Below are positions 4,134 through 34,684 of a stretch of DNA of 35,292 nucleotides, piece by piece. The position numbers were made by a program, and so were the translations under genes. The DNA is from a virus, in the IMG/VR virus record IMGVR_UViG_3300025853_000297, positions 1-35,292 of that record; one strand, 5' to 3'. The stretch's first letter is position 1. The number at the start of each line of letters is the position of its first letter. Under the pieces are notes generated by a model. That model saw only the letters and a list, made by a program, of their open reading frames with translations. It had not been told where the DNA came from and ran no database searches.

Positions 4134-5582
4134 ATGATGGATTACGATTATAAGACGAAACCCTTTACTCACCAAGCTGAAGCGATCAAAGAATCGTGGG
4201 CTAAAGAATACTACGCTCTTTTTATGGAGATGGGAACTGGTAAATCAAAGGTGGCAATAGACAACATGGGGATCCTGTATCAGCGCGGCTTTATTAATGC
4301 GGCTTTGATTATTGCACCCAAGGGCGTGTACGATAACTGGGTCAAAGGTGAGATACCCACTCATTTGCCAGAGCGCATTAAGCGCGACGTTTTAAGGTGG
4401 GAGCCGAAGAGTACAAAAACGTATACGACGCGCTTAGACGATTTTATCCTTGAAGATTTTGATGGCTTAAAAGTTTTTGTGATGAACATCGAAGCGTTGT
4501 CTACCCCGCGTGGGGCGAAGACGGCTGGCAGGTTCCTCGTTCAAAACCCTCAGAACATGGTGGTTGTAGATGAAAGCACCACAATTAAGAACCGCAAAGC
4601 CGCTCGCACAAAGAACCTGCAGGTTTTGCAGCGTTACGCAAAGTATCGTCGGATCCTGACAGGCTCGCCAATCACCAAAAGTCCAATGGACCTTTTCAGT
4701 CAGTGCAGCTTTCTTTCGCCGCAAGCACTGGGCTTCAATAGTTACTTTGCTTTTCAGAACCGATATGCTGTAGTACGGCAACAAAAGATGGGTCAACGAT
4801 CCTTTCAAGAGATTGTGGGCTACAGGCGGCTGGATGAACTCAATGAGCGGCTCCTACAGTTCAGTAAGCGCATTTTGAAGTCAGAGTGCCTTGATCTGCC
4901 AGAAAAGCTCTATACGAGGCGCTACGTGGCTCTGACGGACGAACAGGCGAAACTGTATGGACAGATGAAAGATATGGCGTTGGCAATGTTGGATAACGGT
5001 GAATTAGCCACAACGACCAGTGTCCTCACACAGATTATGCGGCTGCAGCAAATATGCTGCGGTCATTTCACTCCTGACGTGGGAGAAACAAGAAGCTTGG
5101 AAAACAATCGAATTGACGAGCTTCTTAGCATTACGGAAGAGCTTCAGGGAAAATGTATCATTTGGGCGTCGTATACTCACGACATTCAACAGATACATAA
5201 GTCCCTGCGCGACTGCTTTGGGCCCGAAGCAGTCGCACTTTATTACGGGGAAACACCCCAAGAACAGCGTCAAGCGATTGTTGAGCGGTTTCAAGACCCG
5301 GACAACCCGCTACGCTTCTTTGTCGGTCAGCCAAGAACAGGCGGTTACGGCATCACTTTGACCGCTGCGACGACGGTTGTTTATTATTCAAACAGCTACG
5401 ATCTTGAAATAAGACTTCAGTCAGAGGACAGGGCGCACCGCATTGGTCAAAAGAACCCTGTAACGTATATCGACTTGGTATCCCCAGATACTTTAGACGA
5501 AAAAATACTCAGCGCCCTACGCCAGAAAGTTAACCTCGCTGAAACTGTCTTGGGAGAAGAGGCTCGGCAGTGGTTCCTCTGA
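4134..5582 (+). CDS. SNF2-family DEAD/DEAH-like helicase/translocase
   Basis: This 482-residue ATPase is a compact SNF2 core without accessory domains. Visible motifs are a Q-like FTHQ (11-14), Walker A MGTGKSK (33-39), motif II VDEST (145-149, a DEST variant of DEAH), motif III LTGSPI (175-180), motif V GGYGITLTAAT and motif VI QSEDRAHRIGQ (429-439). The RAHRIGQ signature is diagnostic of SNF2 proteins, which translocate on double-stranded DNA. In phages of this type it probably helps replication, recombination or removal of host DNA-bound proteins. AAGGAG lies 4 nt before the first ATG and 7 nt before the second (4137), so M1 or M2 could be the start. It is the only rightward gene here. Its last 53 bp overlap the opposite-strand polyvalent gene. 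Confidence 0.95.
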   Translation: MMDYDYKTKPFTHQAEAIKESWAKEYYALFMEMGTGKSKVAIDNMGILYQRGFINAALIIAPKGVYDNWVKGEIPTHLPERIKRDVLRWEPKSTKTYTTRLDDFILEDFDGLKVFVMNIEALSTPRGAKTAGRFLVQNPQNMVVVDESTTIKNRKAARTKNLQVLQRYAKYRRILTGSPITKSPMDLFSQCSFLSPQALGFNSYFAFQNRYAVVRQQKMGQRSFQEIVGYRRLDELNERLLQFSKRILKSECLDLPEKLYTRRYVALTDEQAKLYGQMKDMALAMLDNGELATTTSVLTQIMRLQQICCGHFTPDVGETRSLENNRIDELLSITEELQGKCIIWASYTHDIQQIHKSLRDCFGPEAVALYYGETPQEQRQAIVERFQDPDNPLRFFVGQPRTGGYGITLTAATTVVYYSNSYDLEIRLQSEDRAHRIGQKNPVTYIDLVSPDTLDEKILSALRQKVNLAETVLGEEARQWFL

Positions 5583-8328
5583 GCAACTGTTCGATGCCTT
5601 CTAGAGAGTATTTTTCTTGTAAACTTGGGCGCAACGCAGCTTCAACGGCCTCTACAACTTGCTGTTGTTGCTCTGGTCGAGCCATGGGCCGTGGACTTTC
5701 ATTAAGTTCGTTTTGAAATACGGGCGCTAGATCCGTGGGCCGTGCGACAGGGCGCACGTAATTCATTGGATTACTGTAGTCTGGATCAGAGTAAATGGGG
5801 TTTCGCGGAGCAACGGGTTGGTTCATCACCAACTCCTCTTTGGCGTCTTCCGACAAGCTCTCATCACTGTAAACGTTCAGTCCACCGTGCTTCTGTAGAT
5901 AATCACTGAGACGAGTGCCCTGTTCTGGATTTTTCTTATTATCGGACGGATCATATGCGCCATCTGTCTCCAAAAATTGTCTCAGTCCGTAGTTTCCGCC
6001 AAGATGCGCGACCGCCATCATGCCACTTAAAGTAACGGGTACACCTTTAACCATCTTGCCAATGTACTCGTCCAAGCCGTTATTTGCTATGTAATCAAGC
6101 GTTTTTTGCTCATACCAGTTTTGAAAGGCTTCTTGTAAACCCGCGTTCTTTTTAAATTGGTCGCGTGTAAAGTCACGACCTGTTTCTTCTTTAAATTCTT
6201 CAAGGGTTTCAGGCATTGCCTGAGATGCACCAAGGGCTCCAGTTCTTTTATTTACAGCGTCAAGCGCACCGCCAGAACTTTCTGTGCCGTACAGAGAGCG
6301 CCGGTATTCGGTGCTTGCTGCGGCTACGCCACCCTTAGTCATGTGCCGCGCTAGCTCCGATAGAGATCCAACTCCCTTACGTATTTCGCCGCCCTCGTTC
6401 ATACGCCGCGCTATTTCAGAGAGAGATCCAACTCCCTTACGCATTTCGCCGCCTTCGGCTCTTTTGAATAAGGGCATCAAGTCGGCATCATCTGTTGGGA
6501 TTTCTCCCTGATCTATTCTTACCGTCATTTCCGGAATTAATGAAGTATCGTAAATCACAATATTATTGGGACCTCCACTAACTTCCGTGGTGCCCCCAAC
6601 AACACCCGTAAACCCCGATTCTTCAAAAACTTTTCTTAAATTTTGTTTATCGCCCGATTGTTGATTTGAAAATAATAATCCTTTTTCATCTTTGCGTAGT
6701 GGATTTTTTATTGCCTCCGTGATACGGTCTACCTTTCTAAAAACATCATCAGGATTTTTTGTGTCTATTTGCAGTGTAGTTTCTCCACCCTCATCATAAG
6801 TTGATGTGGGCCTTCGCTTGTAAGAAACCGTAAGAATATCATCTTTTTGTTGAACAACTAAAGGGTTGCCATCGAAGTCTGGCATTGACGACAAAGCGCT
6901 ACTCAACCCCTCTATCTGAGGTTTTGTAAGAGGTTTTTTTAATTTGACATTTAGCATTTCGCTGGTATCAATTTCGGCACTCATTAAACTACCCCGGCCT
7001 CCCACATGCTGCGAAGGATAGTTTAAATTAGTAGAAAAATAAGCGCCGGGACCCGCGGCTCCCATGTTGTAATAATTTGACGATTGTTGCGCTGCGGCGG
7101 CGTCAAATTTTGTGAAGGGCGCTCCGCGAGTGGCGTGAAAAACTTCAACTTTATCCGGTCGCTCTATATTTAAATTACGTGCTAAATTGTCAAGACGACT
7201 ATCTAATTCATTTCCAGCCAAACCGTTACGTTCGTATTCTAATTTTTTTAATCGAAACGTTTCAAATGGAGATCTTTGCATAAACCCTTGTTGTTTAAGG
7301 TAGGCATCTGAATCAAAACTTGAATCGCGGTCCGTCATTTTCATGCCTGCATCAGGCAGTCCATAAACACCAAAAGTATCTTTTCTTGTTTTACTTCCTT
7401 CAACGTAATCCTGCACGTCTTCAACGACAGTGCGAGCGTAAGGATACTCATTGAAACCGTTTCTGTCTTTTACCTCCAGCAAACCTCTTTTTTGAATTTC
7501 TTCAGCCAAAGGAATCATTTGCTCAATGTATTCTTCTTCGCTATACATGCGAAAATCACTTAAAGCTTGAGACAATTCTTCAAGGGATTCATCGGCGGCT
7601 CCCCTTATCTCCTTTGGCCCGATTTCGCTGACAAGTTCTCGCATATCCATTTCTGTGGTTAGGTCGAAATCCCTATGTAATTTTTCTGCTTCAGCTATTG
7701 CTTCATCAAAAGGACGTGACGTGATGTCACCGGGCAGGTTTTCGGACAATTCATCCGCGGCATCGTATGCCGCATTCATTTCATCTCGTAAAACTTTGAT
7801 GTTTTTAGCAAACATGTCGATAGGGTTAATCGAAGGTTTCACACGCTTAACCGCAGCGGGCACTTTTTCCAAAGCTTCTGTTATTGCTTCTGGCGCGAGG
7901 GCCGCGACCCCTGCCGCGGCACCCAACCCCTTTATAAAATCTCTGCGGCTTTTGTCTGTAAGCTCATCTAATGGTTTTGTTTCAGGTCCAGAGACACCTA
8001 AGAACATTTCAGGTATAATTTGAGACGCTTTCTGCCCTAACGCTTTTCCTAAAACAGGCCCAGCTAAAGCGTAACCTAAAGTGCCTACTCCAGCTTCTGC
8101 ACCCTTGCGCAACCTTTCGTCAGTTGGCAAATCCGAATCAAAGGCCTGTCGAGACGCGCCGCCTAAATTGTAAACAATATCTTTCGGAACGTTTAAGAAA
8201 TCGACAACCGCTTCAATTCTTTCAAAACCGGGTCCAAATCTTTGACGCATGGGCGAAGAATCCGTCTGAACCCGTGGTCCGCGATTGTACTCTTCTTCTG
8301 AAGGGGGCGGGACTATCGCGTCTGCCAT
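5530..8328 (-). CDS. Polyvalent virion protein: Tat-like motif, ADP-ribosyltransferase-like domain, lysozyme/transglycosylase-like domain
   Basis: This 932-residue multidomain protein has a hydrophobic, glycine-rich stretch at about 76-112. A twin-arginine-like motif SRRDFIK (127-133) follows, trailed by an alanine-rich hydrophobic segment. A helical linker (170-390) comes next. Residues about 395-600 look like the ADP-ribosyltransferase of phage polyvalent proteins: VFHATRG with H398, GPGAYFSTN (426-434), and a closing NNIVIYDTSLIP (588-599). Two near-identical 20-residue repeats carry GG at 626 and 646, and a third GG sits at 666. Residues about 670-820 resemble a soluble lytic transglycosylase/lysozyme fold, with TESSGGALDAV, TGALGASQAMP and MAVAHLGGNYGLRQFL. 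Such proteins are ejected with the DNA to cut peptidoglycan and modify host targets. The ART part is AT-richer than its flanks, which suggests a swapped-in domain. Its ATG shares a base with the upstream stop. Confidence 0.75.
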   Translation of the reverse strand: MADAIVPPPSEEEYNRGPRVQTDSSPMRQRFGPGFERIEAVVDFLNVPKDIVYNLGGASRQAFDSDLPTDERLRKGAEAGVGTLGYALAGPVLGKALGQKASQIIPEMFLGVSGPETKPLDELTDKSRRDFIKGLGAAAGVAALAPEAITEALEKVPAAVKRVKPSINPIDMFAKNIKVLRDEMNAAYDAADELSENLPGDITSRPFDEAIAEAEKLHRDFDLTTEMDMRELVSEIGPKEIRGAADESLEELSQALSDFRMYSEEEYIEQMIPLAEEIQKRGLLEVKDRNGFNEYPYARTVVEDVQDYVEGSKTRKDTFGVYGLPDAGMKMTDRDSSFDSDAYLKQQGFMQRSPFETFRLKKLEYERNGLAGNELDSRLDNLARNLNIERPDKVEVFHATRGAPFTKFDAAAAQQSSNYYNMGAAGPGAYFSTNLNYPSQHVGGRGSLMSAEIDTSEMLNVKLKKPLTKPQIEGLSSALSSMPDFDGNPLVVQQKDDILTVSYKRRPTSTYDEGGETTLQIDTKNPDDVFRKVDRITEAIKNPLRKDEKGLLFSNQQSGDKQNLRKVFEESGFTGVVGGTTEVSGGPNNIVIYDTSLIPEMTVRIDQGEIPTDDADLMPLFKRAEGGEMRKGVGSLSEIARRMNEGGEIRKGVGSLSELARHMTKGGVAAASTEYRRSLYGTESSGGALDAVNKRTGALGASQAMPETLEEFKEETGRDFTRDQFKKNAGLQEAFQNWYEQKTLDYIANNGLDEYIGKMVKGVPVTLSGMMAVAHLGGNYGLRQFLETDGAYDPSDNKKNPEQGTRLSDYLQKHGGLNVYSDESLSEDAKEELVMNQPVAPRNPIYSDPDYSNPMNYVRPVARPTDLAPVFQNELNESPRPMARPEQQQQVVEAVEAALRPSLQEKYSLEGIEQLLRGTTAEPLLPRQFQRG
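6340..6456. repeat. Two-copy 60-bp direct repeat inside the polyvalent gene
   Basis: Units starting at 6340 and 6400 match closely, including an identical 20-bp core at 6362 and 6422. They encode the two GGE(M/I)RKGVGSLSE(I/L)A copies. The 60-bp spacing keeps the frame and places successive GG pairs exactly 20 residues apart. Confidence 0.85.
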
Positions 8329-9191
8329 TATCGTCTCCGTAGCGACATTAATCCGCCTTGGGCCATTGGCACAGGTTCTCCGTAAACAATTCTTTCCGAA
8401 GGTTGAGGGACGCGAATGGGTGCGATGTGAATGGCACCTGTGCCTTCATTTGGATCTTCGGGATCTACAGGATCAACGGGCATTACGGGCATTACGGAAC
8501 CGGTGTCCGGTCTTGAAGTGTCAATTCCGGGTCCTGTGTTAGATCCCATACCATACAAAGCGTCACTAAGTTTTTGCCTTTGTAACTGGTCCAGCGTACC
8601 TTGCACATAGTTTCTAGCCGCCGCATCCGAAAAACCAAAATCTTTTAAGCCCTGCACCTTTCTATCTACGTCGTTTGAAAAAGCACCGCCCGAAAATAAG
8701 TTTGCTACGCCCATGCCAAGATCTTGTCTACCTCTACGGTAAGCGTCGCTAATATCTGTGAAGAATTGTCCAATCCCAGTTTTTGCTCTGGGAGAAGCCC
8801 CCATGTAACCAGAGCCGCCCGACATGAAAGGGAGAAACCCGCCACTCCCCTGCATACCCTGTTGAGTCAACATTTCCGGTCTGAATTGATTTGCAGCCAT
8901 CTGTGCGCCACTGGATTGCGTGTAGCTGGTTTGCGGCCTATTCGCAAACTGCATCGCATAATTTAAAGGATTGTCCTCTGGCTTTTCGTACTGGTTGTTA
9001 CCAAAAATACTTTTATTTGTTCCAAAAGCAGAAGTATCTTGCAGTCCTTTTGCCCGCAAACCACGACTATGTTGGGCCTGCGCAGCCATATGCGCGGCTT
9101 GACTTCCACGATTACCCGCTAAAGCTTCATGCTCTTCATATTGACTTTCAAACGGACCACTATAATCATCGTTGCTAAAGGTAATAGGCAT
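8328..9191 (-). CDS. Probable virion structural protein, ends with GGLMSLRRR
   Basis: This 287-residue low-complexity protein is rich in Gly, Ala, Gln and Met. A central region (about 125-215) contains TGIGQFFTDISDAYRRGRQDLG, split by Gly, and helical FGFSDAAARNYVQGTLDQLQ. A proline/aspartate stretch (VMPVMPVDPVDPEDP) comes before the C-terminus AQGGLMSLRRR. I recognise no catalytic domain. The C-terminal GG motif matches those of its large neighbours, and the gene lies between two large virion genes with a TAATG junction to the polyvalent gene. An internal or ejected virion role is therefore likely; the function is unknown. Confidence 0.7.
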   Translation of the reverse strand: MPITFSNDDYSGPFESQYEEHEALAGNRGSQAAHMAAQAQHSRGLRAKGLQDTSAFGTNKSIFGNNQYEKPEDNPLNYAMQFANRPQTSYTQSSGAQMAANQFRPEMLTQQGMQGSGGFLPFMSGGSGYMGASPRAKTGIGQFFTDISDAYRRGRQDLGMGVANLFSGGAFSNDVDRKVQGLKDFGFSDAAARNYVQGTLDQLQRQKLSDALYGMGSNTGPGIDTSRPDTGSVMPVMPVDPVDPEDPNEGTGAIHIAPIRVPQPSERIVYGEPVPMAQGGLMSLRRR

Positions 9192-9195
9192 TCTT

Positions 9196-12100
9196 CTACT
9201 CCATTAAACTGGCAATTCCGCCGCGACGAAAGCTTCGTGGTTGTTGAGTAATCATACTCGAAATTGGATCATTAGGAAACAGCGCAGCGTAAGTTTGTCT
9301 TACTTGCGGATTATTGGTTCCCGCTGCCACTGATGTCTGGGGGGCAGCGGGAAGAGCCGCCTGAGTGGTGGGATTGCCTACAGGCGGTTTTTGGTTTGAA
9401 GCGTCCCGATTCCGTAATAATTCCTGCGCTTTATTTAAAAGCTCTTCGGCAGGGTCCGCGGGGCGTGATCGAGGGGGTCGTCCAAGATTGCGACCAATAA
9501 GTCCCCGTCTTTTACGTTCTTCATACCGCTCTTGAGCCGTGGGGGGCTCCGTCGGAGGTCGGCGATCAACGGCTTCTGCCTCCGTAGAAGTTACTTCCTC
9601 AATAGCGGCAGAAGGTCCGCGGGTAACGGCTCGCACACCGGGCGCACCAGTCGCTGCTTTAATAACTGAACCCGTTGTCTTTTTAACAAAGTTTAGCATA
9701 CGTCGCATAATGGCTTCTTTTTCGTCTGCGCTACGTGGAACGCGCAAAGCTGCCATTAATTCTTCTGGGTTTAAGAGAATGTCCATAAAGGCTTGATTTG
9801 CCTGTAAAAAAGGCACCTCTTGCGTTATCATCTGAGCATATTTGGAACCCGCGGATTCTTCGACCAAACCTTGTGAGCGCCCTCCGGGCAGAATTGATCC
9901 CGCGAATTGACCAAGTCTGGCACCTGCAATTCGCGTATAAAGATCAAACAGCGCAGGAACTTCTATACCTCGCATGTCAGCGCCTTGTGCACCAGACTGC
10001 GCTTGCATAGCCATAATTCTTTCCAACGCAAGCTTCATTGAAGCATGTTGTTCATCGCTTAAAGACCCAGCACTCTTTAAAAAGTTTGCCATTGTCATGT
10101 TGTCGTTATCGGCACCCGGAATTTTTTGGAAAAGAGACTTATACAAGATGCCCGCATCAAAAACGCCGTCACGATTTGCACCTTTTATGTTGCGCTGTGA
10201 TTGGTCAAACGCCCAGTTAATGGTGGTGGCAAGCAGCCCTTCTTGTACATCTTGTAAAGATGGCACACCGTCTTCTGGAAAAGGGATACCAACGCGTTTA
10301 TATGCCTCTCTTGCCGCTTCTTCTGTGGGCAGAGTTGTCATGTTTTTATAAATTACCCTCAGTTGCTCGCTTGGATTTTTTGAAGTGTAGGCGAGACGAA
10401 TTAATTCTGTTGGGTTTTCTGTTAATACACCTTTTCCATTACGCATGGCATATTGGAAAGCAGCCATTGAATCTCGTGTTTGTTTTATTCGCGGTATAAC
10501 GGCTTGCACACGATTTATAAATTCTTGTGGATCTCTAATATTGTCTATTTCCCTTTCAAGATTAGGGAACAATTTTAAGATCATTGCGTTATTAGAAGCC
10601 CAGTTTTTAATATTTTGAAGTTGCCGTTCTTTAATTTGAATAGGGTCAAGCTTAACATTCTCTTCTATTGTACTTGTTGCTCTTCGTAAAACTTCACGCA
10701 AAGATACTTCCAACAAGTCTTGTTGTGTTCCAAGATTTTTTCCGATCTCTGCTAATTCTTCTTCCGACGCACCCCCTGAAATGGCTCTATTCATTAACTC
10801 AAGGTTTGCGTTTTCAATTTGACGAACACGAAGAGCGCTGGCATCTTTGTTGCCAGAAAAAATTGTTATAGCCGCTAAATCAGGCTCTACAACGATACGA
10901 CCTTGACTGTTCTTACGCAACAAGTCTCCACCGAAAGTTTTCTTAAAAAATTGTTGATAAGCCACAGATGCGTCTATAGCATTTTGATAAGCTGGTCCGA
11001 CATCTTCATAACTACGCAAATCATTTAACGCGGCGCTTCGTAAATCAACAGCCCGTCTAAAGAAATCACCGTTCCCACCAACGGCACCAAACCTATCTGC
11101 GGCAATACGCAAGGTTTTACGAAGCGAAATAAGTTCAGAGGCCGGTAGACCGCCCTCGTCTGGAGTTATAGCCATGTTTGTTAATTCGTTTGCACGGCGC
11201 ATTTCAGCGGTGATTGCTTTTTTCTGAAGCGTCAGCAAATTGCCTAATGGACCAGAGGGCGCGGTTGTTTCGCGGCCCGCGACCTCGTCAGCTTCACGAG
11301 AAAGCATATTATCAAGATACTGAATACGTGCCTCTAAAGCATTTTTACGAAGTTTTCCGACTTCGCCTAAGTCTTTCAAACCAACAGTTGCGGCCCGTAA
11401 AGCGTCGATTGCGTCTTGTGTTGATCCACTAGAAAAACTTTCTCCGGTTCTAGCAAGCGCCGCTTGTGCATAGGTTTTAAAGAACTCTTGTGTTTGCCGT
11501 TGCAATTCGTTTCGCGGATCAGAAGCGTCTAATTCTTCTAAATACTGACGTAGTGCGTCCGCGTCCATTTGTAAAATTGCATTTGCTTGCGGCTCTACTG
11601 TGTTTCTCATATAGTCTTGATTTGAAACTTCAATTAAATTATATTGCTGATCCAAAGCCAAGTTGTCTAATTCATTTACGTCCAAAGCTTGGCCTGCTAA
11701 AGCTTCTCGCTCTATTCGCAGCGCCTCGTCTTGATAAGAGTTTCCAAAAACATCTCTAGTTCCCGCCAATTTATTACGAGCCTTATCAAAAGCATCGCGA
11801 TATTTGTTGGGCCGTTGTGTTTCAATCACCCTCGCTAATTTTTCTAAATTCTCTTGAGTTGGCGCAACCGCGCCATTAATGATTTCAAGATCCGCCTCGG
11901 ATAACAACCTATTGTAAGTGTCAAACCACTCCTCTCCTGCCGCATCTCCCAGAGCGTCATTAAGTTTTTTTGTTGCAGGGGTGATGCCATCAAAGGGGTT
12001 TGGTGCCGCGGCAAGCCCAAGACGTTCTTTTATGGTGTTTACAACTTCGTTTACGTTTCTGAACTCAGCCTCACCCATTACAGCAAGTAAGGTGGACTTT

Positions 12101-13923
12101 TCGTTTTGCATTTCACGAAGCATCGCGTCCCAAGCTTCAACAATGTTTGGCACGTCAGAAGCGGAATCTGGAATTACGTTTCCGTCTGAATCAAATCTAT
12201 AAAACGTATCGTTCCTAATCGTCTGATCTACGTCTTCCCAAGCTTTTTGTTGAATGTTTTTGAAAACGTTTTGAACATTAAGTTGCGCTTTTGCAATTCC
12301 TTGGCCCAGAGCTTCTGAAGCTTGTTCTCCGCCCTCTGGATAAACTTTGCCAACGGCAGCAACTGCGCTTTGTACCGCTTGGTCCATGCGCTTTTGAATC
12401 AAAAGTTCAATGCGAGCGGCTTGAATTTCATTGGCAATTTTTAAAAGTTCAGGGTCGCCGGTTCCCCTGAGTTCGTTAACCAGTGCAGTTTGGGCGTTCA
12501 TGCTTCTTCTAAAGCTATTATTGAGAAGCTCACCGCCCTCATTCTCCGCCATCATTTTCATAACTTGAGCGTCAAGGTTTGCTAAAGCAGGACTTTCTAC
12601 AAATGCACTTGAAAAGGTGGTTTGAGGAACAGTTTTGCCTTTTTTGTCTTTAGTCAAAAACTCTGGCTTAATGTTCCCATTATCGTCTAAATAAGTTTCT
12701 TCTAAAGCTTTTAAAAGATCTGCAGGGTTTTCACCACGCTCATTAATCAAATTCAATATATACTGTATTTGTTCGCCTTTAACACGTGCTTTCCTACCAA
12801 GTAAATCAAGTCCTTGGCCCGCTGCCAGACTGGCTTTACGTGCTGCAACATAATTTTTTCCGGCCTCAACTATTGAAGGTATGAAGCGCAAAGTACTTAA
12901 ACTGGGGGCCATGCCTCCCAGCATTTCGCCAGTAATCATTTTAACTTCAGACCGTGGATCCTGACCCGCTATTGCTGTTGTTGCTCCAAACGTGGCAGGA
13001 ATTTGAGCACTCTCAACGCCGAGCGCAAGAACTTTACCGGGCAAAGTTTCTGCACTTCTGTACATTTTTCCGCCCGAAATAAGCAGGTCTTCCGCGGCAC
13101 CAATTAAACGTGGAAAACGTAGTGCTTTGCCCTGCAGATACTTTGTCAGATATGGATTATTCTGTATCTGTTCTTTTGTGACAGGGCCGTAAGCAAGTCT
13201 ATCTGGTAATGTTTGTAAATATTTTGCCTGTGTAACACGCGCATTTGGTGCAAGCGTTGGATTAAATATAAAAGGAAGCGCCGTTCCCGTCGCCTGCCAA
13301 ATTTTTAAAGCGGACTCTGTTTCCGGCGTCAAAGGAATGGTGTCTTCAATTTGATTCATTGTCAAATCGCCCACAGCATCTCCCGCCGTGCCACCTAGTA
13401 CAGAACCTGCAAGAAAACCAAGACCTCCAAGAACAACTTGACCGGGCAGTCCAAAGGGAGTACCTGCCATAACGCCGTATCGTGCACCCTTTGCACCACC
13501 AAGCATAGCACCGCCGCCTTCAAGAGCGCCAGAAAAAAAAGCTTCTTTACGGGATGGGACGCCGGGGTCACCATATTGTTTTAGATTTGTAAAATAACGC
13601 AAAACGTCTTCATTGCGCAGACCCTTTCCCGCTTGACTAGCGGGTATGTTTAAAAACTTTAACCCTTCGGCAGTTCCCCTTTGCACGTCTAATGGATCGA
13701 ACATACCCGCAAATTCAGATCTGTTGTTAAGTATTTTCAACGTTTGTTGGGCAAGATAATCGGTTACTTTTTGTTTGTTTTCAAAAACCTCGTAAGCCGT
13801 TGACAACTCACCGGGTTCCCACTCCACAAAAACTCCTGCATCTATAAGATTTTGCTTGTGCGGCGGCATGTCCGTTGGAGCAAAAACTGGTTCGTTTGAG
13901 GTGCGTCTACTACGATTTGCCAT
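9196..13923 (-). CDS. Giant internal virion-like protein with glycine-zipper segment and long helical body
   Basis: This 1575-residue protein is the largest in the window. Residues about 131-186 form a hydrophobic, glycine-zipper segment (GGGAMLGG, VVLGGLGFLAGSVLGG) able to insert into a membrane. The middle, about 380-1400, is almost entirely charged helix with coiled-coil character. The C-terminal 150 residues are proline/arginine-rich and disordered, then end with YAALFPNDP and a terminal FRRGGIASLME. I see no catalytic motif. Size, membrane-active segment and position fit the large ejected core proteins of short-tailed phages (compare T7 gp15/gp16), which form a DNA conduit through the envelope. 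That is inference. Its ATG overlaps the upstream stop by one base. Confidence 0.75.
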   Translation of the reverse strand: MANRSRRTSNEPVFAPTDMPPHKQNLIDAGVFVEWEPGELSTAYEVFENKQKVTDYLAQQTLKILNNRSEFAGMFDPLDVQRGTAEGLKFLNIPASQAGKGLRNEDVLRYFTNLKQYGDPGVPSRKEAFFSGALEGGGAMLGGAKGARYGVMAGTPFGLPGQVVLGGLGFLAGSVLGGTAGDAVGDLTMNQIEDTIPLTPETESALKIWQATGTALPFIFNPTLAPNARVTQAKYLQTLPDRLAYGPVTKEQIQNNPYLTKYLQGKALRFPRLIGAAEDLLISGGKMYRSAETLPGKVLALGVESAQIPATFGATTAIAGQDPRSEVKMITGEMLGGMAPSLSTLRFIPSIVEAGKNYVAARKASLAAGQGLDLLGRKARVKGEQIQYILNLINERGENPADLLKALEETYLDDNGNIKPEFLTKDKKGKTVPQTTFSSAFVESPALANLDAQVMKMMAENEGGELLNNSFRRSMNAQTALVNELRGTGDPELLKIANEIQAARIELLIQKRMDQAVQSAVAAVGKVYPEGGEQASEALGQGIAKAQLNVQNVFKNIQQKAWEDVDQTIRNDTFYRFDSDGNVIPDSASDVPNIVEAWDAMLREMQNEKSTLLAVMGEAEFRNVNEVVNTIKERLGLAAAPNPFDGITPATKKLNDALGDAAGEEWFDTYNRLLSEADLEIINGAVAPTQENLEKLARVIETQRPNKYRDAFDKARNKLAGTRDVFGNSYQDEALRIEREALAGQALDVNELDNLALDQQYNLIEVSNQDYMRNTVEPQANAILQMDADALRQYLEELDASDPRNELQRQTQEFFKTYAQAALARTGESFSSGSTQDAIDALRAATVGLKDLGEVGKLRKNALEARIQYLDNMLSREADEVAGRETTAPSGPLGNLLTLQKKAITAEMRRANELTNMAITPDEGGLPASELISLRKTLRIAADRFGAVGGNGDFFRRAVDLRSAALNDLRSYEDVGPAYQNAIDASVAYQQFFKKTFGGDLLRKNSQGRIVVEPDLAAITIFSGNKDASALRVRQIENANLELMNRAISGGASEEELAEIGKNLGTQQDLLEVSLREVLRRATSTIEENVKLDPIQIKERQLQNIKNWASNNAMILKLFPNLEREIDNIRDPQEFINRVQAVIPRIKQTRDSMAAFQYAMRNGKGVLTENPTELIRLAYTSKNPSEQLRVIYKNMTTLPTEEAAREAYKRVGIPFPEDGVPSLQDVQEGLLATTINWAFDQSQRNIKGANRDGVFDAGILYKSLFQKIPGADNDNMTMANFLKSAGSLSDEQHASMKLALERIMAMQAQSGAQGADMRGIEVPALFDLYTRIAGARLGQFAGSILPGGRSQGLVEESAGSKYAQMITQEVPFLQANQAFMDILLNPEELMAALRVPRSADEKEAIMRRMLNFVKKTTGSVIKAATGAPGVRAVTRGPSAAIEEVTSTEAEAVDRRPPTEPPTAQERYEERKRRGLIGRNLGRPPRSRPADPAEELLNKAQELLRNRDASNQKPPVGNPTTQAALPAAPQTSVAAGTNNPQVRQTYAALFPNDPISSMITQQPRSFRRGGIASLME

Positions 13924-16900
13924 TAGTCTTTGCCCCCAATTCTATCATTAGCTTCGTCAATGAGTTTTGTATCTATATATCCTTCGTCGGGTAAGTGATG
14001 CATAAGATCTAAGAATGTATCAATTGCAAAGTTCTGTTCTTCCGCACGTTTAATGGTCTGTGCATTAGTTGAACTACCTATTGTTTTATAGTTCTGATCT
14101 CGCTCAATAAGGAGTCGTTTTCGGAGAACAAGCAGTTCAGCAATAGCTGCTTCGGGGTTTTTAAGGAATTGCTCTGTGCTTGGGATTGATTTTCCTAGAC
14201 GAACTTGTTCCCCCTCACTGATACGAGGCGTTGCAGCCAGAGCAATACGAACAGAAACGTTTAGTGCGTCAACCCATGCCCGTGCCTGAACAGTGTCTTC
14301 AAACATGTTTCGCCAACCCCATGAACCGGGGGTTAAACTTGTTAGGGCATTGGCAAATTCCCTAAGCTTGGCATAAGGACCTATACCCTCGCGGGCCATA
14401 GCCGCCATATCAATGCTTCTTGCGATAAGATTTGGACCCCCCAAATCTCCAAACATTTCTTTAACGCCTTCTTTTCCTAAATTTTCTTCCAACTTTTTGT
14501 ACGCTTCGCTACCGTGCATTTTGATATATGCTTCGGCATTTACTGCCGCTAATTTCATTCGCATTTCTGCCGCTCGTCTAGCGTTTTTGACACTTTCGTA
14601 AGTATTGTTTTCGCCTAAAATTATAGCGTTCTGATACTCTGGCAACGTAAAGTCTATGGGTTTGCCGTTTACATCGTAAAAGTTACCGCCCATGAAGTTA
14701 ACTATTTGAGGTGTTCCGTCTGCAGTTTTAAGCAATGTTTTTGCGGAGCCTGTGAGTTGTGACCGCACCGCCGTCGGATCTTTTAAACTCAAAACTTGTT
14801 GATTTGTGAGTTCCACAAAAGTATTTGCAGGAATTTCTTGACCGTCTACGACAATTGACTTTGTAGTAACAAAGCCATTTGTTTTTTCTGCGGTATCCTT
14901 ACTATATAGGCCAGATTCAACATACCCCTCGTCAAGCAAACCATTTATTACAATTCTTGCACCGTTCTCATTGGTGTTAATTGAAACCGTTTCTCCGGTA
15001 TCTGGATTGGTCAAATTAACCATAGTAATTTCTGGGATCATTCCAGCCCGCAACATTTGCTCATCTTTGTCCAGCGCCAAAAATTCATCCATCGTCATGT
15101 TGTACTTCAGCAAGAAGTCTTTGTCCGTAAGAACGGGAACACCCATCATTGCTCTGTACAAGTTCTCATCTTCTTTGCGGAGTTCTTTTAGCTCTTCAAG
15201 CATAAAGCCCGTTTTTTGATAAACGTCCTTTTCAGTTATAACCGCTGTGTTGATATTTGCAGGAGCCTTTTTCTGCAAAGCTATAAGCTCATTTTTGTTA
15301 ACAAGCTGCGGACCTTTGGCGTAGAACAATCCATCATCCAGCGTAATGTCGTCTGTAAGGTCAATCAACTGCATTTGACCTTCACGCTCACGCATCAAAG
15401 CTGTTATACTTTTTTGCTCAGCCATGTAGGCATCAACCAAAGTTCTGTCTGTAGACCATCCTGAATAACTTGCAAAATCGTCTTCCGAAGGACCTTCTTC
15501 TATAAGTTCTCTGAACTTTTTATTACCTTCTTGAGAGGATACAAAAACCTCTTTTCTTTCGTAGTAAGGTTCGCCCTCAATTGGAGTGACTTTCCTGAAG
15601 ACAACTTGTGTTTTAGGATCTTCAAATTGTTGATCGAATGCCGCGCTGTTATCGGTCCACAAACCGTCTTCCCCGACGTTTGCAGTAAGCCATTGTTTAC
15701 CCAGCGCAGAATTAGTATCCACCATTTGAGAGTCGGAGCCGTCTTTTTTGTAGAAAGTTTGGTAATTGGAATTTTGTGGTCTAGGAGCAAACTGCACTCC
15801 TTTTTCTAAGAAATCGGCAAATTGCACATCGTTAGCTGCAATCACGCTTCCCGCTTTCAAATCATACGTTTCACCATTTATTCTTACTTTTTTGTCTGCC
15901 TGAACTTCATAAAACTCGACAGGTAAACCTTTTTGTTCAATTTCTACTGTCAGTCTTTTTGCTGTTTCCGCTGCAGTAATAAACGGTTTTATTGTCTCCT
16001 TAGTGTAATAACTCTTTGAATCTTTTTGATATTGCGCAAAGTCTTGTGGATTATTTTTGTTGTAGACCTTGTAAACTGCAGGAAGTCCGGCTGCGTCTAC
16101 CGTGTAAAGAACAAGTTCGTCCGGATTTGTCGGCTTCATTGTTTTAAGAGCTTCTTCTAAACCCTCCGCTGCTCGCGTTTGCGCAGACGCTTCTGGTACT
16201 GCCAAGCCAAAAGCCGTGGCCCGTGCTTGTTGATCTAGGTTCTTCAGTTCTTTTTCTGCAGCCCGTACTTGAGCCGCCCGTTGAGCAAATCTATCCGTTA
16301 ATTGAGTACGATTTAACGCGTTTGCCAACCTTTCCGCAACAGACCCGCCTTCTGTTTCTCCTGCAAAGGCAAGCCCCGCGCCAGCAAGATCAAACATTAA
16401 TTGACTGCGAGCCATTTGACGATCTTTTTCAAATTCCGCTCGGCGCTCTTCGTCAGTGCCATATATTCCTTGCGCCAAAGGCAAAAGCCCTTCGTAGATG
16501 CCGGGAACCCGACTCACCATTGTCGTCGGAACGCTAGAGTTTCCCGTTGGCGGCGTTCCATCTTGAAACTTACGGACCATTACGGGCCCACCCCGTCTAA
16601 AATTTTCGGGTGGAGTGCTGCCCGCCCCCTGCATCATAAGAGCACCTAGACCTTGGTCCATGCCTTGGTCCATTTGCGTATCTCCCGCAACAGCCTGCAT
16701 AAGTTCCCCTATGCCACTGTCCATCGCGCCTTGTTGCGTCATCATAATAGCGGGTTGCGTCAGAGCCAAAACGGATTCAGGGGTCTGCATTGCGTCGCGC
16801 TCACCAACAAGACCTGCAAGCTCTTGGTAGCGGGCGTCTAGCGGCATGTCATTGCCGCGGAGCGCGTTAATTGCACCTTCTACGTCTGTGGCAGCATCAA

Positions 16901-17099
16901 TGCTCTCTTGTGTGCGAGCCGCAATCTCCTGCCCTAGCATCTCTCCTTCTTGCTGCGCACTTTGAGACATGTCCTGCGGCATGGGTTCTGCGGGACCACC
17001 CATCTGACGAAACAAGGGCCGTTGCATGACGCCGCCGCCAGCTTTGCCAAGAATTTGTCTTTGCACGTGTTGTGGCAGCGCTCTAAAACCTTCGTTCAT
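13923..17099 (-). CDS. Large virion protein with N-terminal GG-motif module
   Basis: This 1058-residue protein has an N-terminal module that I recall from many marine phage virion proteins: LPQHVQRQILGKAGGGVM (8-25), a second GG (34-35), then INALRGNDMPLDARYQELAG (76-95) and TPESVLALTQP (106-116). NFRRGGPVMVRKFQDG (166-181) follows. A hydrophobic helix LMFDLAGAGLAFAG lies near 235, then an alanine-rich coiled coil. The remainder (330-1058) is a long mixed region without recognisable enzyme motifs. Expected role: internal or tail-associated structural protein, perhaps ejected with DNA. It starts one base before the stop of the 691-aa gene ends on its left side and shares a TAATG junction with the 1575-aa gene downstream. 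Confidence 0.75.
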   Translation of the reverse strand: MNEGFRALPQHVQRQILGKAGGGVMQRPLFRQMGGPAEPMPQDMSQSAQQEGEMLGQEIAARTQESIDAATDVEGAINALRGNDMPLDARYQELAGLVGERDAMQTPESVLALTQPAIMMTQQGAMDSGIGELMQAVAGDTQMDQGMDQGLGALMMQGAGSTPPENFRRGGPVMVRKFQDGTPPTGNSSVPTTMVSRVPGIYEGLLPLAQGIYGTDEERRAEFEKDRQMARSQLMFDLAGAGLAFAGETEGGSVAERLANALNRTQLTDRFAQRAAQVRAAEKELKNLDQQARATAFGLAVPEASAQTRAAEGLEEALKTMKPTNPDELVLYTVDAAGLPAVYKVYNKNNPQDFAQYQKDSKSYYTKETIKPFITAAETAKRLTVEIEQKGLPVEFYEVQADKKVRINGETYDLKAGSVIAANDVQFADFLEKGVQFAPRPQNSNYQTFYKKDGSDSQMVDTNSALGKQWLTANVGEDGLWTDNSAAFDQQFEDPKTQVVFRKVTPIEGEPYYERKEVFVSSQEGNKKFRELIEEGPSEDDFASYSGWSTDRTLVDAYMAEQKSITALMREREGQMQLIDLTDDITLDDGLFYAKGPQLVNKNELIALQKKAPANINTAVITEKDVYQKTGFMLEELKELRKEDENLYRAMMGVPVLTDKDFLLKYNMTMDEFLALDKDEQMLRAGMIPEITMVNLTNPDTGETVSINTNENGARIVINGLLDEGYVESGLYSKDTAEKTNGFVTTKSIVVDGQEIPANTFVELTNQQVLSLKDPTAVRSQLTGSAKTLLKTADGTPQIVNFMGGNFYDVNGKPIDFTLPEYQNAIILGENNTYESVKNARRAAEMRMKLAAVNAEAYIKMHGSEAYKKLEENLGKEGVKEMFGDLGGPNLIARSIDMAAMAREGIGPYAKLREFANALTSLTPGSWGWRNMFEDTVQARAWVDALNVSVRIALAATPRISEGEQVRLGKSIPSTEQFLKNPEAAIAELLVLRKRLLIERDQNYKTIGSSTNAQTIKRAEEQNFAIDTFLDLMHHLPDEGYIDTKLIDEANDRIGGKD

Positions 17100-19175
17100 T
17101 TAAAAAATCCCCGCTTGTTGTGCACCGCTCATTGCACCGTAGGCCCCAATCCCCAAGCCAACGGCTGTTTGGAAGGGATTAGCTTGTGGCATTGAAGAAA
17201 CTTGCATCGTAGAAGAACCCGTTGGAACTTGGCTGTAAATGTCAGACAAGAACCCGTACTGTTGGAAAGGTTGTGAGTAATTTTGCAAGTTTGTCATACG
17301 GTTTGCGTCAAGTTCACTCTGCGTAATGCCACGCTGCAATCCGCCTGTGGTCATCAAACGGTCAATGTCAGAGGCACTTAATCCGCTTAGAAGCTGACCA
17401 AGATTAGCATAGTTCATTCCCATGCCCGCCATCTGCCCGCCCAAACCGGCAATTCCTTGATCCGCCGACATGCCTGTGCGTATAGCATCCATACCTAACC
17501 CGGTTCCTGCTATGGCTCCGCGGGCCGCGGCATCTTCCGCGCCCATACCGTAGCGTCCATAAATGTCCGCTCCAGAGATACCGGCACTTTCTGCGCCCAT
17601 GCCCAGACGTGCGCCTGTTTCCGCGGCACCCATTCCAAGCTGTGCGCCCTGTCCTGCAGCGTCCATACGAGCTTGCATACCTCGGCCCGCAGCATCCATG
17701 CCTAGCTGCGCTCCCGTGGTTGCGCCTGCCCGCGCCGCATCTGCGGCGCTCATGCCAAACTGAGTCCCCGCGATATCGCCTCGTTGACCAAGGCCCGCGG
17801 CATCCATACCTAGTTGCGACCCCTGTCCTACAGCGCTCAGACCCAACTGTGCGCCCTGCAACGATCCAGTTTGAGCAAGGGATTCGGCCCCCAAGCCCAA
17901 TTGTCCGCCACGGCCTGCCGCGTCTATTTGAGTAGCGGCACCCGCCTGACCCAACTGACCCGTCCCCATAGCAGCGGACTGCCCTCTACCCATCCGATCT
18001 TCAAAAGCTTTTTGGGCACGTTGCGCTGCGCTTTCATATCCCGCCTGACGGAGCCCCGCCGCTGTTTTAGCCTGCTGCTCTATAACGTTGCGCCCAATCT
18101 CGGCTGCTTGTACACCCTGACGAGATCCACCAAATGCACCCGCACCTACCGCAGTTGCATCCATCTGATTTCTTTGTATTGCACCAGCCCGTGCTACGTC
18201 CTGCATTGCCGCATCAATAACAGCCTGCTCATACGGATTCATGTAATCCTGTATCGCAGACGGATCAAACCCGCCTATGGTGCCCGCCAGTTGTCCGATA
18301 CCACTTTCTGCCGCGCCCCTTCCAAACTGACCCGCATCCGCCAAAGATCTTTGCGCGGCAAGCGTGGAAGCCCTTGCGCGGTCCGCGGCAGTTTGAGCGC
18401 CTTCCTGTCCGGTGCGAGCTTCACCCAATAAACCCGAAGCTCCTGTACTGGCAATGTTTCTTGCAAAATCGGTAGTTGCCCCTAATGCGCTTTGACCCGC
18501 CAACGCTTCTGCAGCGCTCTTATCGGTAGCTGCGCGAATACCAGCTTGACCTTGCGCCGCCTGTCTAGCCAATTCCTCGCTTCCAGTAGTTGCCGCGCCG
18601 GTCAAACCTCTTTGCCCCTGCAAAGCTTGATTTACTAACGCCTCTCCCGCGCCGCCCGCAATGGCGCGTTGCGCATTAACCGCGTCCGTAATGTCCGCCT
18701 GTGTTCCTGCAGCAACGTCACGACCACCCCGAATTGCTTCTGCAAGGCCCGCCTGCCCCGCAAGCGCTTCTTGTCTGGCAGCGTCTCCTACGCCACGAAA
18801 ACCACCGGCAGCTTCATTTAACAACGCGCTGGCATCCGCCAACCCTAAACCAGCCTGATCTAAATATGGTTGATATGCACCAACGCCGCTTTGCGCTAAA
18901 TCAATCGCTCGCTGTTCACCTCCAGAAATGCCCGCGACGGTATATTCGGGTGGGCCAAAAAGTTGATCCTGAGAAATGTTGCTAACATCCGCGACACCCC
19001 TGCCCAAACGCGCTGCAATTGCAGCGTCGTCAAGCCCTTGTGCACGTAAGTTTTGTACATTGCGACCAAAGATCTGATCTCTAACAAGTTGTTGAGAATC
19101 TTCTAAAAGACCAACGCGAAAGGCTTCTATTTCAGGGTCTTGGCGGTTAATGTTTACGTTTGTTTGTGTAGCCAT
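17100..19175 (-). CDS. Alanine/glycine-rich virion protein with 11-residue repeats
   Basis: This 691-residue protein has two repetitive alanine/glycine-rich regions (about 110-295 and 398-580) flanking a unique centre. The second is built from 11-residue units of the type GAQLGMDAAGQ, repeated with the same phase many times. The centre, about 303-395, contains YMNPYEQAVIDAAMQDV, RNQMDATAVGAGAFGGSRQG and RAQKAFEDRMG, a block I recall as conserved among phage structural proteins. The C-terminus has NYSQPFQQYGFLSDIY (632-647) and a short hydrophobic end. The amphipathic repeats could form extended helices or a membrane-associated bundle. It is probably a virion or ejection protein. It shares a TAATG junction with the gene upstream. 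Confidence 0.75.
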   Translation of the reverse strand: MATQTNVNINRQDPEIEAFRVGLLEDSQQLVRDQIFGRNVQNLRAQGLDDAAIAARLGRGVADVSNISQDQLFGPPEYTVAGISGGEQRAIDLAQSGVGAYQPYLDQAGLGLADASALLNEAAGGFRGVGDAARQEALAGQAGLAEAIRGGRDVAAGTQADITDAVNAQRAIAGGAGEALVNQALQGQRGLTGAATTGSEELARQAAQGQAGIRAATDKSAAEALAGQSALGATTDFARNIASTGASGLLGEARTGQEGAQTAADRARASTLAAQRSLADAGQFGRGAAESGIGQLAGTIGGFDPSAIQDYMNPYEQAVIDAAMQDVARAGAIQRNQMDATAVGAGAFGGSRQGVQAAEIGRNVIEQQAKTAAGLRQAGYESAAQRAQKAFEDRMGRGQSAAMGTGQLGQAGAATQIDAAGRGGQLGLGAESLAQTGSLQGAQLGLSAVGQGSQLGMDAAGLGQRGDIAGTQFGMSAADAARAGATTGAQLGMDAAGRGMQARMDAAGQGAQLGMGAAETGARLGMGAESAGISGADIYGRYGMGAEDAAARGAIAGTGLGMDAIRTGMSADQGIAGLGGQMAGMGMNYANLGQLLSGLSASDIDRLMTTGGLQRGITQSELDANRMTNLQNYSQPFQQYGFLSDIYSQVPTGSSTMQVSSMPQANPFQTAVGLGIGAYGAMSGAQQAGIF
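17436..17984. repeat. 33-bp-period degenerate tandem repeats coding for 11-residue units
   Basis: This stretch of the 691-aa gene encodes successive 11-residue units with the pattern G-x-Q-L-G-M-x-A-A-x-x. Several neighbours differ at only a few positions; examples are AQLGMGAAETG and ARLGMGAESAG. The repeats are GC-rich compared with neighbouring genes and are clear at protein level but degenerate at DNA level. Confidence 0.7.
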
Positions 19176-20788
19176 TATGCAACCACCCCGCCTTCAAAAG
19201 CTCTCATTATGTCGTACATTTTCTCAACACCCTTCTGACGGCTACCGTCGCCTGCGCCTCGAACCGCACGTGCCGTCATTACAAATTCTCCGTCAGACAA
19301 CATTGCTGGAATGTCGTCCGAAGTTTCTGTGCCGGGGCCCGCGATATACCCCTCGCGACGCGGGAACTCCATTTCACCACCTTTTGCTGCGTAGACCGGA
19401 CCTCCGTAAACGTCTTCTCTTCTTCGTCTTCTTGTAGGTGCAATAACAGGACCGGTCCGATAACGTTCAGGGTACATTTCTAACAATTCGCGTGTTGTGT
19501 ATGGATACGGATCTTCCGGTGGATCCTCTTCTATCGGGTCAAACCCACCCGCAAGGGCCATAAGTCCAAGACCTGCGGGGATGGCGGTAGCATAGTTAAT
19601 TCCGCCAGAACTTTTTACCAGATCCATTGCTGCGGCTTTTCCTGTAGCGTCTGGTATTGCAGCATATGAATCAAAACCTAATTGTTTTGCAGCGGAATCT
19701 GCCGTTAATTGAGGTTTTGTTAAAAAGTTTTTAGCGCCACTTACAGGATCCTGTAGGAATGACGCGTCTTGAGGTTGAGGTTGATTCACTAACTGCGCAC
19801 TCTGCGCTGCAGCGTCTACACTACCTGTAGTTTTTGCCGCCAATGATCCAGTCCCCCGCATCTGAAAAGGGCTGTACCTATCGTCTAGCGGTTTAAAACC
19901 TGCTCCAAAATCGCCACCCGAGAAAAGCGTGGCGGTTCCCGCAGACGACAGACCGCCCGTCAAACCAGCCTTAAAGGCGTCCTGCATGTCACCACCCTGT
20001 AGCAGTGAGCCGACGCCCCCAGCTATTGCGCCAGAAACAAAAGGACTCATGCCGGGGAACATAAAGCTTACCGCGGCAGGCAACAAGAACGGTGCCGCCT
20101 TTTTGAAGATGTCCTTAATTCCACCAATAAAATCAAAGGCTTCCTCGTAACCCGTCACAGGGTTTACGTTCATTTGACCGCTGCCGACCGTGTACTCTTC
20201 CATGTCACGACCTGTTTCTTCAAACAAGTCCCGCACAGTCCGACGCACACTCGGATCGTCCATCATGCCCTTCGGCATCATTACTTCTGACTTGGTAGCG
20301 TGAATTATCTCAGTGTCGCCGTTGCGACCAAACTCATCAAGGTTCGATGCAAGAAAAGAACCAAGGCCTCTCATAACAGGTCCGCCGTCCGCGTAGCCTT
20401 GAAACCCCTTTTGAAATATTTTAGGGGTTTCTTGCTCAAAGGAAGAGAGACCTCGCGGTACTACAACTTGTGCAGACCCGAAGGAGAAGGGATTAAATGA
20501 TGGCAGTGATTTGGGTGGATTTGCTCCACCTAAAGGGGCCATAACAACCTGCGAAAGATGAGGCGTTCCCGAATAAGAACCCCCGCCCAAGTCAAATCTT
20601 TCTTGCGCCATTTGTTTAACTTCTTCGACAAAAGGCTCAACCTTTTCTTGAACCACATTTTCAGTCAAATACTGCCCCAGCATGTTTTTTAGCGGATCAA
20701 ACGCTCTGTCCAAATTACCGCCAAGTCCGCCAATGCCTCGTTGCATCTGAGCCATTTGTGCCGGAAATGCCTGTTGCTGTTGCATCAT
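19175..20788 (-). CDS. Virion protein with repeated GG and SDGEFV modules
   Basis: This 537-residue protein has an N-terminal Gln/Met-rich region. GYADGGPVMRGLGSF (131-145) comes next, and then a TEIIHATKSEVMMPKGMM module (159-176). Residues about 220-300 form a hydrophobic glycine-rich stretch (FLLPAAVSFMFPG, SGAIAGGVGSLLQGG) that could associate with membrane. Near the C-terminus come AAKGGEMEFPRREGYI (GG at 470-471) and DDIPAMLSDGEFVMTARAV, a motif common at the ends of phage tail and tape-measure-like proteins. The protein ends FEGGVVA. It looks like a tail or internal virion protein; no enzyme is visible. Two adjacent ATG codons follow GAGG, so either may be the start. Confidence 0.72.
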   Translation of the reverse strand: MMQQQQAFPAQMAQMQRGIGGLGGNLDRAFDPLKNMLGQYLTENVVQEKVEPFVEEVKQMAQERFDLGGGSYSGTPHLSQVVMAPLGGANPPKSLPSFNPFSFGSAQVVVPRGLSSFEQETPKIFQKGFQGYADGGPVMRGLGSFLASNLDEFGRNGDTEIIHATKSEVMMPKGMMDDPSVRRTVRDLFEETGRDMEEYTVGSGQMNVNPVTGYEEAFDFIGGIKDIFKKAAPFLLPAAVSFMFPGMSPFVSGAIAGGVGSLLQGGDMQDAFKAGLTGGLSSAGTATLFSGGDFGAGFKPLDDRYSPFQMRGTGSLAAKTTGSVDAAAQSAQLVNQPQPQDASFLQDPVSGAKNFLTKPQLTADSAAKQLGFDSYAAIPDATGKAAAMDLVKSSGGINYATAIPAGLGLMALAGGFDPIEEDPPEDPYPYTTRELLEMYPERYRTGPVIAPTRRRRREDVYGGPVYAAKGGEMEFPRREGYIAGPGTETSDDIPAMLSDGEFVMTARAVRGAGDGSRQKGVEKMYDIMRAFEGGVVA

Positions 20789-33337: not shown

Positions 33338-33499
33338 TTACTTCTTCTTAACCATGCCACCGCCACGCATTTTCTTAACCATGCCGCCGCCACGCATTTT
33401 CTTAACCATGCCGCCGCCACGCATTTTCTTAACCATGCCACCGCCACGCATTTTCTTAACCATGCCGCCGCCACGCATTTTCTTTGGACGCATTGCCAT
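33338..33499 (-). CDS. 53-residue basic repeat peptide: five copies of KMRGGGMVK
   Basis: From ATG at 33499 the reading is MAMRPK, then five perfect copies of the nonapeptide KMRGGGMVK, then KK and TAA one base before the adaptor ATG. A strong GGAG ribosome site lies eight bases before the ATG, inside the end of the 205-aa gene, which it overlaps by 44 bp. The peptide is about 30 percent Lys and Arg, with no acidic residue, and has 15 glycines. DNA or RNA binding, virion packaging or a partner-binding tag are possible. The repeated GGG-hydrophobic unit echoes GG motifs in the large virion proteins. I recall similar MRGGG peptides in marine phages but know of no function. Confidence 0.8.
   Translation of the reverse strand: MAMRPKKMRGGGMVKKMRGGGMVKKMRGGGMVKKMRGGGMVKKMRGGGMVKKK
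33347..33481. repeat. Five tandem 27-bp repeats
   Basis: Five units of 27 bp follow each other without spacers and differ only by C/T at one glycine codon (GGC or GGT). All lie in the 53-residue peptide gene. The near-identity implies recent expansion or strong homogenisation. Confidence 0.95.
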
Positions 33500-34453: not shown

Positions 34454-34684
34454 TTAAGACTTCTTTCCTTTAGCTTTTTTAGCATAGTTTGGATCCTTAC
34501 AGTATTTGGAAGCCGCCATGTTCGCGTATGCACTTGGATAAGTGTCAAAGGTGCGCTTCGCCCATGCTTTTCCGGCAGGGCAGATTTTACTACCTTTACT
34601 TTTAGAAGAAGCTTCTCCACCTTTTCGGAAATAAGTTAAACCCCTTGGCGTTTTATTGCTTATTGAGCGCTTGGACATTGCCAT
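34454..34684 (-). CDS. Small basic conserved phage protein with CPAGKAWAKRTF motif
   Basis: The 76 residues contain YFRKGGEASSKSKGSKICP (GG at 22-23, C35), then CPAGKAWAKRTFDTYPSAYA and ASKYCKDPNYAKK (C62). About a quarter of residues are Lys or Arg. The family is frequent in marine phages, usually beside the DUF6321-like gene, and has no assigned role. The ATG at 34684 has GGAG seven bases upstream and overlaps the end of the membrane-protein gene by 32 bp. Confidence 0.78.
   Translation of the reverse strand: MAMSKRSISNKTPRGLTYFRKGGEASSKSKGSKICPAGKAWAKRTFDTYPSAYANMAASKYCKDPNYAKKAKGKKS

Follow-up and report, generated by a model that had tools for sequence, protein, structure and literature searches.

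The tape measure protein gp46 of the siphophage JBD30 contains, at residues 1022 to 1066, a predicted hook of two helices and a hairpin, which may retain the protein in the baseplate (PMC11445458). Retention has been proposed to occur after the C-terminus is expelled and the authors compare the hook with an element of T5 pb2; the assignment is a prediction, since the last 33 residues alone were resolved (PMC11445458). Here we describe a short Gly-Gly (GG) motif in large proteins encoded by a 35,292-base virus record of IMG/VR (IMGVR_UViG_3300025853_000297; this whole stretch is called the window), whose genes lie mainly on the minus strand. As in gp46, where the same module with a leading F/Y-A-x-GG is found (FASGGHIKGPGTGTSDSIPILASNDEF), the motif leads into a hook-type module near the C-terminus of a protein expected to be ejected through the tail. 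Unlike gp46, the window protein belongs to a probable podovirus with no long tail and has only 537 amino acids (aa), and its GG element is found by itself on further ejection proteins. The P22 ejection proteins gp7, gp20 and gp16 occupy a comparable place downstream of a gp10-type gene and have the same expected role, but they lack the F-x-x-GG motif.

Short peptides that act on unrelated proteins are known elsewhere. The capsid-targeting sequence of T4 brings unrelated proteins into the head; it is an N-terminal leader that is removed by gp21, whereas the window copies are mostly C-terminal or internal and no signs of cleavage were seen. Encapsulin cargo-loading peptides are short C-terminal tags rich in Gly, Ser and Leu, which load unrelated cargo into a shell of the HK97 fold. 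We offer this last resemblance only as a lead, and note that the window-type motif is also present in tape-measure proteins. The literature that we searched contained no description of GGIASL in a phage context, nor of GPGTGTSD-type strings.

A virus-specific consensus linked to the hook module

The DNA pattern for FxxGGIASL, with both x positions free, was scanned in 2.9 million viral contigs. Permuted peptides of the same composition in viral contigs, and FxxGGIASL itself in 85,000 bacterial and archaeal genomes, served as controls. The open reading frames (ORFs) of the bacterial and archaeal search and of one permuted control are samples among the matches listed, not counts, and all fractions given for them below are to be read in this way. 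Raw pattern counts were uninformative (113 stretches for the motif against 80 and 56 for permuted peptides, with a third control dominated by one terminase-like family), so the composition of the free positions and the co-occurrence of the hook module were used as tests instead.

The viral contigs yielded 38 non-redundant ORFs. Position −2 is Ala or Asn in 27 of these against 6 of 52 permuted-control ORFs, and position −1 is Lys, Arg, Glu, Asp or Gln in 24 against 7 of the same 52. Both preferences are combined, as F[AN][KREDQ]GG, in 20/38 viral ORFs compared with 1/52 permuted-peptide ORFs and 1/50 bacterial or archaeal ORFs (p = 1.7e-8); in the latter the residues flanking the peptide look ordinary. 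F[AN][KREDQ]GGIASL is thus a virus-specific consensus, found in numerous proteins with little or no other sequence in common, and the original prediction of a short motif common to otherwise unrelated virion proteins is borne out.

The hook module accompanies the peptide in 20 of the 38 viral ORFs, in none of the 50 bacterial or archaeal ORFs (p = 1e-9) and in one of the 52 permuted-control ORFs (p = 1e-8). The module, GPGTGTSDDIPAMLSDGEF or variants of it, is found in tape-measure proteins and tape-measure-like ejection proteins. It follows the pattern G.G.[S/D]D.(I/V)PA...L.DGEF(V).(T/P)A or the half form GDTMLAH(I)TP.E, typically 9–28 residues after GG; examples among these viral ORFs are FADGGIASLAKGGPSNFPRKNGQIDGPGTGTSDSIPAMLSDGEFVFTAKAV (L103) and FAQGGIASLGRNGDTMLAHITPQEA (L117). 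PHROG families that match module-bearing viral proteins are named tail length tape measure protein. Lambda gpH carries FATGGF and YATGGY within its C-terminal 120 residues.

In the window the GPGTGxSD..PA.LS.GEF module, preceded by F/Y-A-x-GG, is present in the 537-aa protein. The protein is short; the module sits near the C-terminus and is followed in the AlphaFold model by a confident helix (residues 517–536). Across the homologues of this region the G, D, A, L, E, F and V columns are at least 90% invariant. When the PDB was searched by sequence, the profile of the 537-aa family matched residues 1019–1051 of the JBD30 tape measure (E = 6e-4) and two sites in the tape measure of mycobacteriophage Douge (E = 8e-5). 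The C-terminal FEGGVVA of the protein is found only in close relatives and is replaced in other homologues.

Mean predicted local distance difference test (pLDDT) values are 57 for the model of the 537-aa protein and 46 for that of the N-terminus of a neighbouring 1058-aa protein. The motif sites of both are mostly in low-confidence stretches, among them NFRRGGPVMV of the 1058-aa protein (segment 120–214); only the C-terminal tag of the 537-aa protein departs from this, as it closes a helix modelled with confidence. These stretches are probably disordered, in keeping with the earlier suggestion that copies sit at disordered joins.

Enrichment in the probable ejection-protein block

Six large genes (537, 691, 1058, 1575, 287 and 932 aa) lie between a gene for a P22 gp10-like stabilization protein and one for an SNF2-type helicase. 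The same block in the isolate phage DSL-LC04 encodes an annotated tape measure protein, hypothetical proteins and a DNA transfer protein. Judged from these same-position annotations, the window is most likely a fragment of a podovirus and the region its ejection-protein block, an identity anchored by the sequence similarity of the 714-aa gp10-like protein. Several of the motif-bearing proteins of this marine phage are probably injected into the host. A Pfam search with the six large proteins gave no match above cut-off, and neither the 932-aa protein nor the 1058 family had a significant match in the PDB by sequence.

All GG peptides listed in the original prediction are present in the genes to which they were assigned. 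The GG dipeptide alone is not enriched: it occurs 855 times in the relatives' ejection blocks, or 10.4 times per 1000 residues where Gly content predicts 9.9, and it is commoner in other genes. Enrichment of the dipeptide was rejected as none was seen overall. The motif was instead defined by context: GG has an aromatic residue or Met 2–4 residues ahead of it and a polar or charged one at −1, and is followed by a hydrophobic/Glu pair. In its refined form it reads F/Y/M-[A/N/x]-[K/R/E/D/Q]-GG-[I/V/L/P/E]-[A/V/M](-S-L). This form occurs at 8 sites in the window block against 0.45 expected (0/200 local shuffles). The original observation stands in a restricted form, for the refined motif and not for GG alone; the 691-aa protein is GG-poor (9 against 20 expected) and lacks the motif. 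Replication genes have no site against 0.3 expected.

The ejection blocks of relatives contain 30 refined sites against 6.3 expected; the set includes homologues of the window proteins, and these account for much of the excess. Tail, neck and lysis genes show no enrichment (6 against 4.8). Enrichment is modest in those proteins of relatives that have no similarity to the window's, with the strict motif found 5 times against 1.1 expected (other genes, 4 against 1.6) and GG[IL]x[SGNDRK]L 8 times against 2.3 (0/300 shuffles; other genes, 3 against 3.1). A de novo search at the level of families found GG..SL in 11 of 43 ejection families, compared with 3.8 after shuffling and with 4 of 212 other families.

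Within the phage group the motif is C-terminal in 23 of 111 proteins, homologues included, where 4.5 are expected, as against 4 of 238 other genes (6.6 expected). C-terminal enrichment across viruses was rejected (4/38 against 5/52 in controls), so the claim that copies sit at termini stands for the group but not beyond it.

Copies on ejection proteins and small basic proteins

The C-terminal tag of the 1575-aa protein, FRRGGIASLME, is unchanged in relatives L003 and L004 though the aligned parts of the proteins are only 25–27% identical, and the 1575-family protein of L085 ends in TKGGIESLLS. The 287-aa protein ends in AQGGLMSLRRR, and the proteins at the same position end in GGIVSLGRR (L004) and EGIVSLGRR (L003). 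These two proteins, which lie between the 1575 and 932 families, have no detectable similarity to the 287-aa protein, yet a similar C-terminal tail (GI/LxSLxRR) is kept. In the 932-aa family ADGGEMRKGV and MNEGG are kept in L004. Two of the copies in the 932-aa protein, and the MRGGGM copies of a 53-aa basic protein, are not independent because they lie in a 60-base-pair (bp) tandem duplication and a 27-bp array respectively.

Small, basic proteins containing several diverged copies of a GG unit occur in many relatives (L021, L033, L051 and others), for example MMRGGKVNGMMRGGPVKMMRGGKV in L033. Some start with FPDLTGDGKVTQADVLKGRGV, and one version of this unit is located inside the 1058-family protein of L042, beside FRNGG; short modules therefore appear, from sequence, to pass between the small GG-repeat proteins and the ejection proteins. 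By eye the FPDLTGDGKVTQADVLKGRGV unit resembles a calcium-binding dockerin/EF-hand loop. The extension of the motif to small genes stands only in part: the MRGGGM units are real, albeit an array, whereas those of the 126-aa and 76-aa proteins are weaker cases that fall outside conserved cores.

Strict sites are also found in other phages, three in the isolate DSL-LC04, two in 023Pt_psg01 and one in the isolated Pelagibacter phage HTVC023P, which carries a C-terminal FNRGGIADVRRK. The ejection or internal proteins of T7, HTVC019P, P-SSP7, HTVC010P, P22 and CRP-902 contain no strict site.

Possible roles of the motif

The recurrence of the motif in unrelated proteins exceeds chance and suggests a docking tag that has not been described before. 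We tentatively favour, at a little under even confidence, the idea that it serves the phage ejection apparatus as a short linear motif for docking. Its native setting would be the lead-in F[AN]xGG-[I/x]-... to the hook module, G.G.[S/D]D..PA.L.DGEFV... The 537-aa protein would bear the full module, and other co-encoded ejection proteins would reuse the GG element alone, at a free C-terminus, on a flexible N-terminal arm or in tandem in a small basic protein. The copies would bind one common site, most likely the portal/tail hub or the hook protein itself, and the ejection proteins would in this way be gathered in the virion or during ejection. The persistence of tags as protein bodies diverge, both in the 1575-aa family and in GGLMSLRRR compared with GGIVSLGRR, supports docking. 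So do the virus-specific consensus, its co-occurrence with the hook module, the profile matches to the JBD30 and Douge tape measures, the invariant motif positions of the 1058-aa family and the mostly low-confidence setting of the sites.

Several points weigh against this idea. We infer binding, the receptor and the step served, and the resemblance of the stand-alone copies to those joined to the hook may be superficial. In the neighbourhood of the stand-alone viral copies no hook gene was found, although the contigs are mostly short and the hook pattern used for this search was too strict. GG..SL is only one among several enriched patterns in the family-level search and is not top-ranked. In the 1575-family protein of DSL-LC04 the shared LFPxD region is followed by no tag, so not all relatives need one.

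In a broader form of the docking idea, F[AN]xGG[I/V/L]xSL would be a general undescribed code with which many phages mark proteins for loading into the portal–tail channel, for retention by it or for passage through it. The hook would be the bearer known best, and small basic proteins with several copies would act as organisers. We regard this generalisation as credible but doubtful.

A defined tag of ten residues, present in cultured isolates that include DSL-LC04 and HTVC023P, makes it possible to test how most podoviruses bring several unrelated ejection proteins together in a single virion and release them in sequence. The shared module links the ejection proteins of podoviruses with the tape-measure proteins of siphophages, and the motif offers an annotation handle for many unnamed marine phage genes.

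A packaging tag, the view closest to the first reading of this locus, would bind scaffold, portal or capsid interior and load the ejection proteins into the procapsid. Motif-bearing proteins are indeed expected inside the podovirus head, the conservation of C-terminal tags on diverging bodies also fits, and the multivalent small basic protein is encoded near head–tail genes. Siphophage tape-measure proteins, however, are never in the head and have F/Y-A-x-GG elements and the hook, and none are seen in T7-like and P22 internal proteins. The absence from T7-like pelagiphages and cyanophages, P22 and Roseobacter phage CRP-902 indicates that internal proteins are not packaged by this motif in general. 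Since the motif is also borne by tape-measure proteins, we do not favour capsid targeting and consider it rather unlikely. A capsid-targeting code is not supported in the form first proposed, since the motif leads into a tape-measure hook module.

It is unlikely that the element is passive, that is, a flexible Gly-Gly turn capping the hook module and linkers, spread by short-module recombination under a weak structural preference and with no shared partner. That a 1058-family protein contains FPDLTGDGKVTQKDILKGRGV with GG, as the small GG-repeat proteins do, suggests that modules move, the context is GG-rich and of low complexity, and enrichment is modest in strictly independent proteins. A passive turn would not readily account for the sequence-specific consensus at free positions, for residues that remain invariant at 24–38% identity or for C-terminal tags with no module following them.

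Homotypic adhesion, in which aromatic-x-x-GG-beta-branched segments would stack as small beta assemblies, allowing reversible clumping in the head and reassembly in the channel with no separate receptor, we judge improbable. The recurrence of copies, inside single proteins and across those encoded together, would suit such stacking, as would their low-confidence flanks and the tandem copies of the 53-aa protein, but the preference for K/R/E/D/Q at −1 and A/N at −2 resembles recognition of a partner rather than general stickiness. A protease site, also raised in the original prediction, is very improbable: tape-measure cleavage near this region is reported or proposed for T5 and JBD30 (PMC11445458) and P22 gp7 is annotated as N-terminally processed, but the proposed JBD30 site (residue 1066) is downstream of the GG element, cleavage at the C-terminal tags would free only 5–10 residues, and no sign of proteolysis, no protease and no common cleavage context were seen.

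Feature coordinates and further observations

Table 1. Motif copies, the proteins that bear them and the genes bounding the ejection block in the window
Feature	Position	Strand	Remarks
SNF2-type helicase	4134-5582		other boundary of large-gene block
932-aa protein, three copies FKRAEGGEM, RRMNEGGEI, RHMTKGGVA	6313..6468	-	two in 60-bp tandem duplication
287-aa protein, C-terminal tag MAQGGLMSLRRR	8331..8366	-	same-position proteins of L004, L003
1575-aa protein, C-terminal tag FRRGGIASLME	9199..9231	-	identical in L003, L004
1058-aa ejection protein, motifs in N-terminal 175 residues	13923..17099	-	
1058-aa protein, NFRRGGPVMV	16575..16604	-	N166, F167, G170, G171, V173 invariant in 9 homologues
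1058-aa protein, RQMGGPA	16989..17009	-	G34-G35 invariant; 9 homologues at 24-38% overall identity
1058-aa protein, AGGGVMQ near N-terminus	17022..17042	-	GG-x-VM in close homologues
537-aa ejection/tape-measure-like protein with hook module	19175..20788	-	PHROG tape-measure families at 471-515; profile match to JBD30, Douge
537-aa protein, C-terminal tag AFEGGVVA	19178..19201	-	[FY]EGG[VA]V[AS] in close homologues
537-aa protein, GG lead and hook module YAAKGGEMEFPRREGYIAGPGTETSDDIPAMLSDGEFVMTARAV, from residue 466	19244..19393	-	alignment of 31 homologues
537-aa protein, YADGGPV upstream of half-module NGDTEIIHATKSEV (from residue 132)	20375..20395	-	pLDDT <50
P22 gp10-like stabilization protein, 714 aa	21362..23506	-	34% full-length to DSL-LC04 stabilization protein; phrog_3287
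53-aa basic protein, five MRGGGMVKK units	33338..33499	-	27-bp array; small GG-repeat proteins in many relatives
126-aa protein, FAAGGGEI, weak member	34193..34216	-	TGGEI in L024/L025 homologue; outside PHROG core
76-aa protein, YFRKGGEA, doubtful member	34610..34633	-	outside PHROG core; 93% identical homologues without GG

The 932-aa protein (5530-8328, minus strand) matches the PHROG endolysin family phrog_26675 at residues 672–816. Upstream of this region, at about residues 390–450, a possible ADP-ribosyltransferase-like region was noted by eye (VEVFHATRG...GPGAYFSTN). Residues 127–145 form a twin-arginine-like stretch, SRRDFIKGLGAAAGVAALAPEA, which scores 20.7 bits against Pfam TAT_signal, just under the cut-off of 22.7; its internal position is odd and it might matter after ejection.

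A different GG tag is conserved at the C-terminus of another ejection family (L009, L013, L017, L045 and L047), with the form LLGG.G.A.LL, for example NPAVAATLLGGLGNAGLL. Large ejection proteins encoded after the 691 family in L027, L037, L044, L057 and L078 share the N-terminus NRKLF.NRDARKRL.EMGGIMASS.ELM...Q.F, which resembles the RPLFRQMGG N-terminus of the window's 1058-aa protein. Elsewhere in the window, positions 29481-30806 encode a protein of many NVSVTGLSATGxVGSVTVxA-type repeats, with 66-bp tandem repeats in the DNA.

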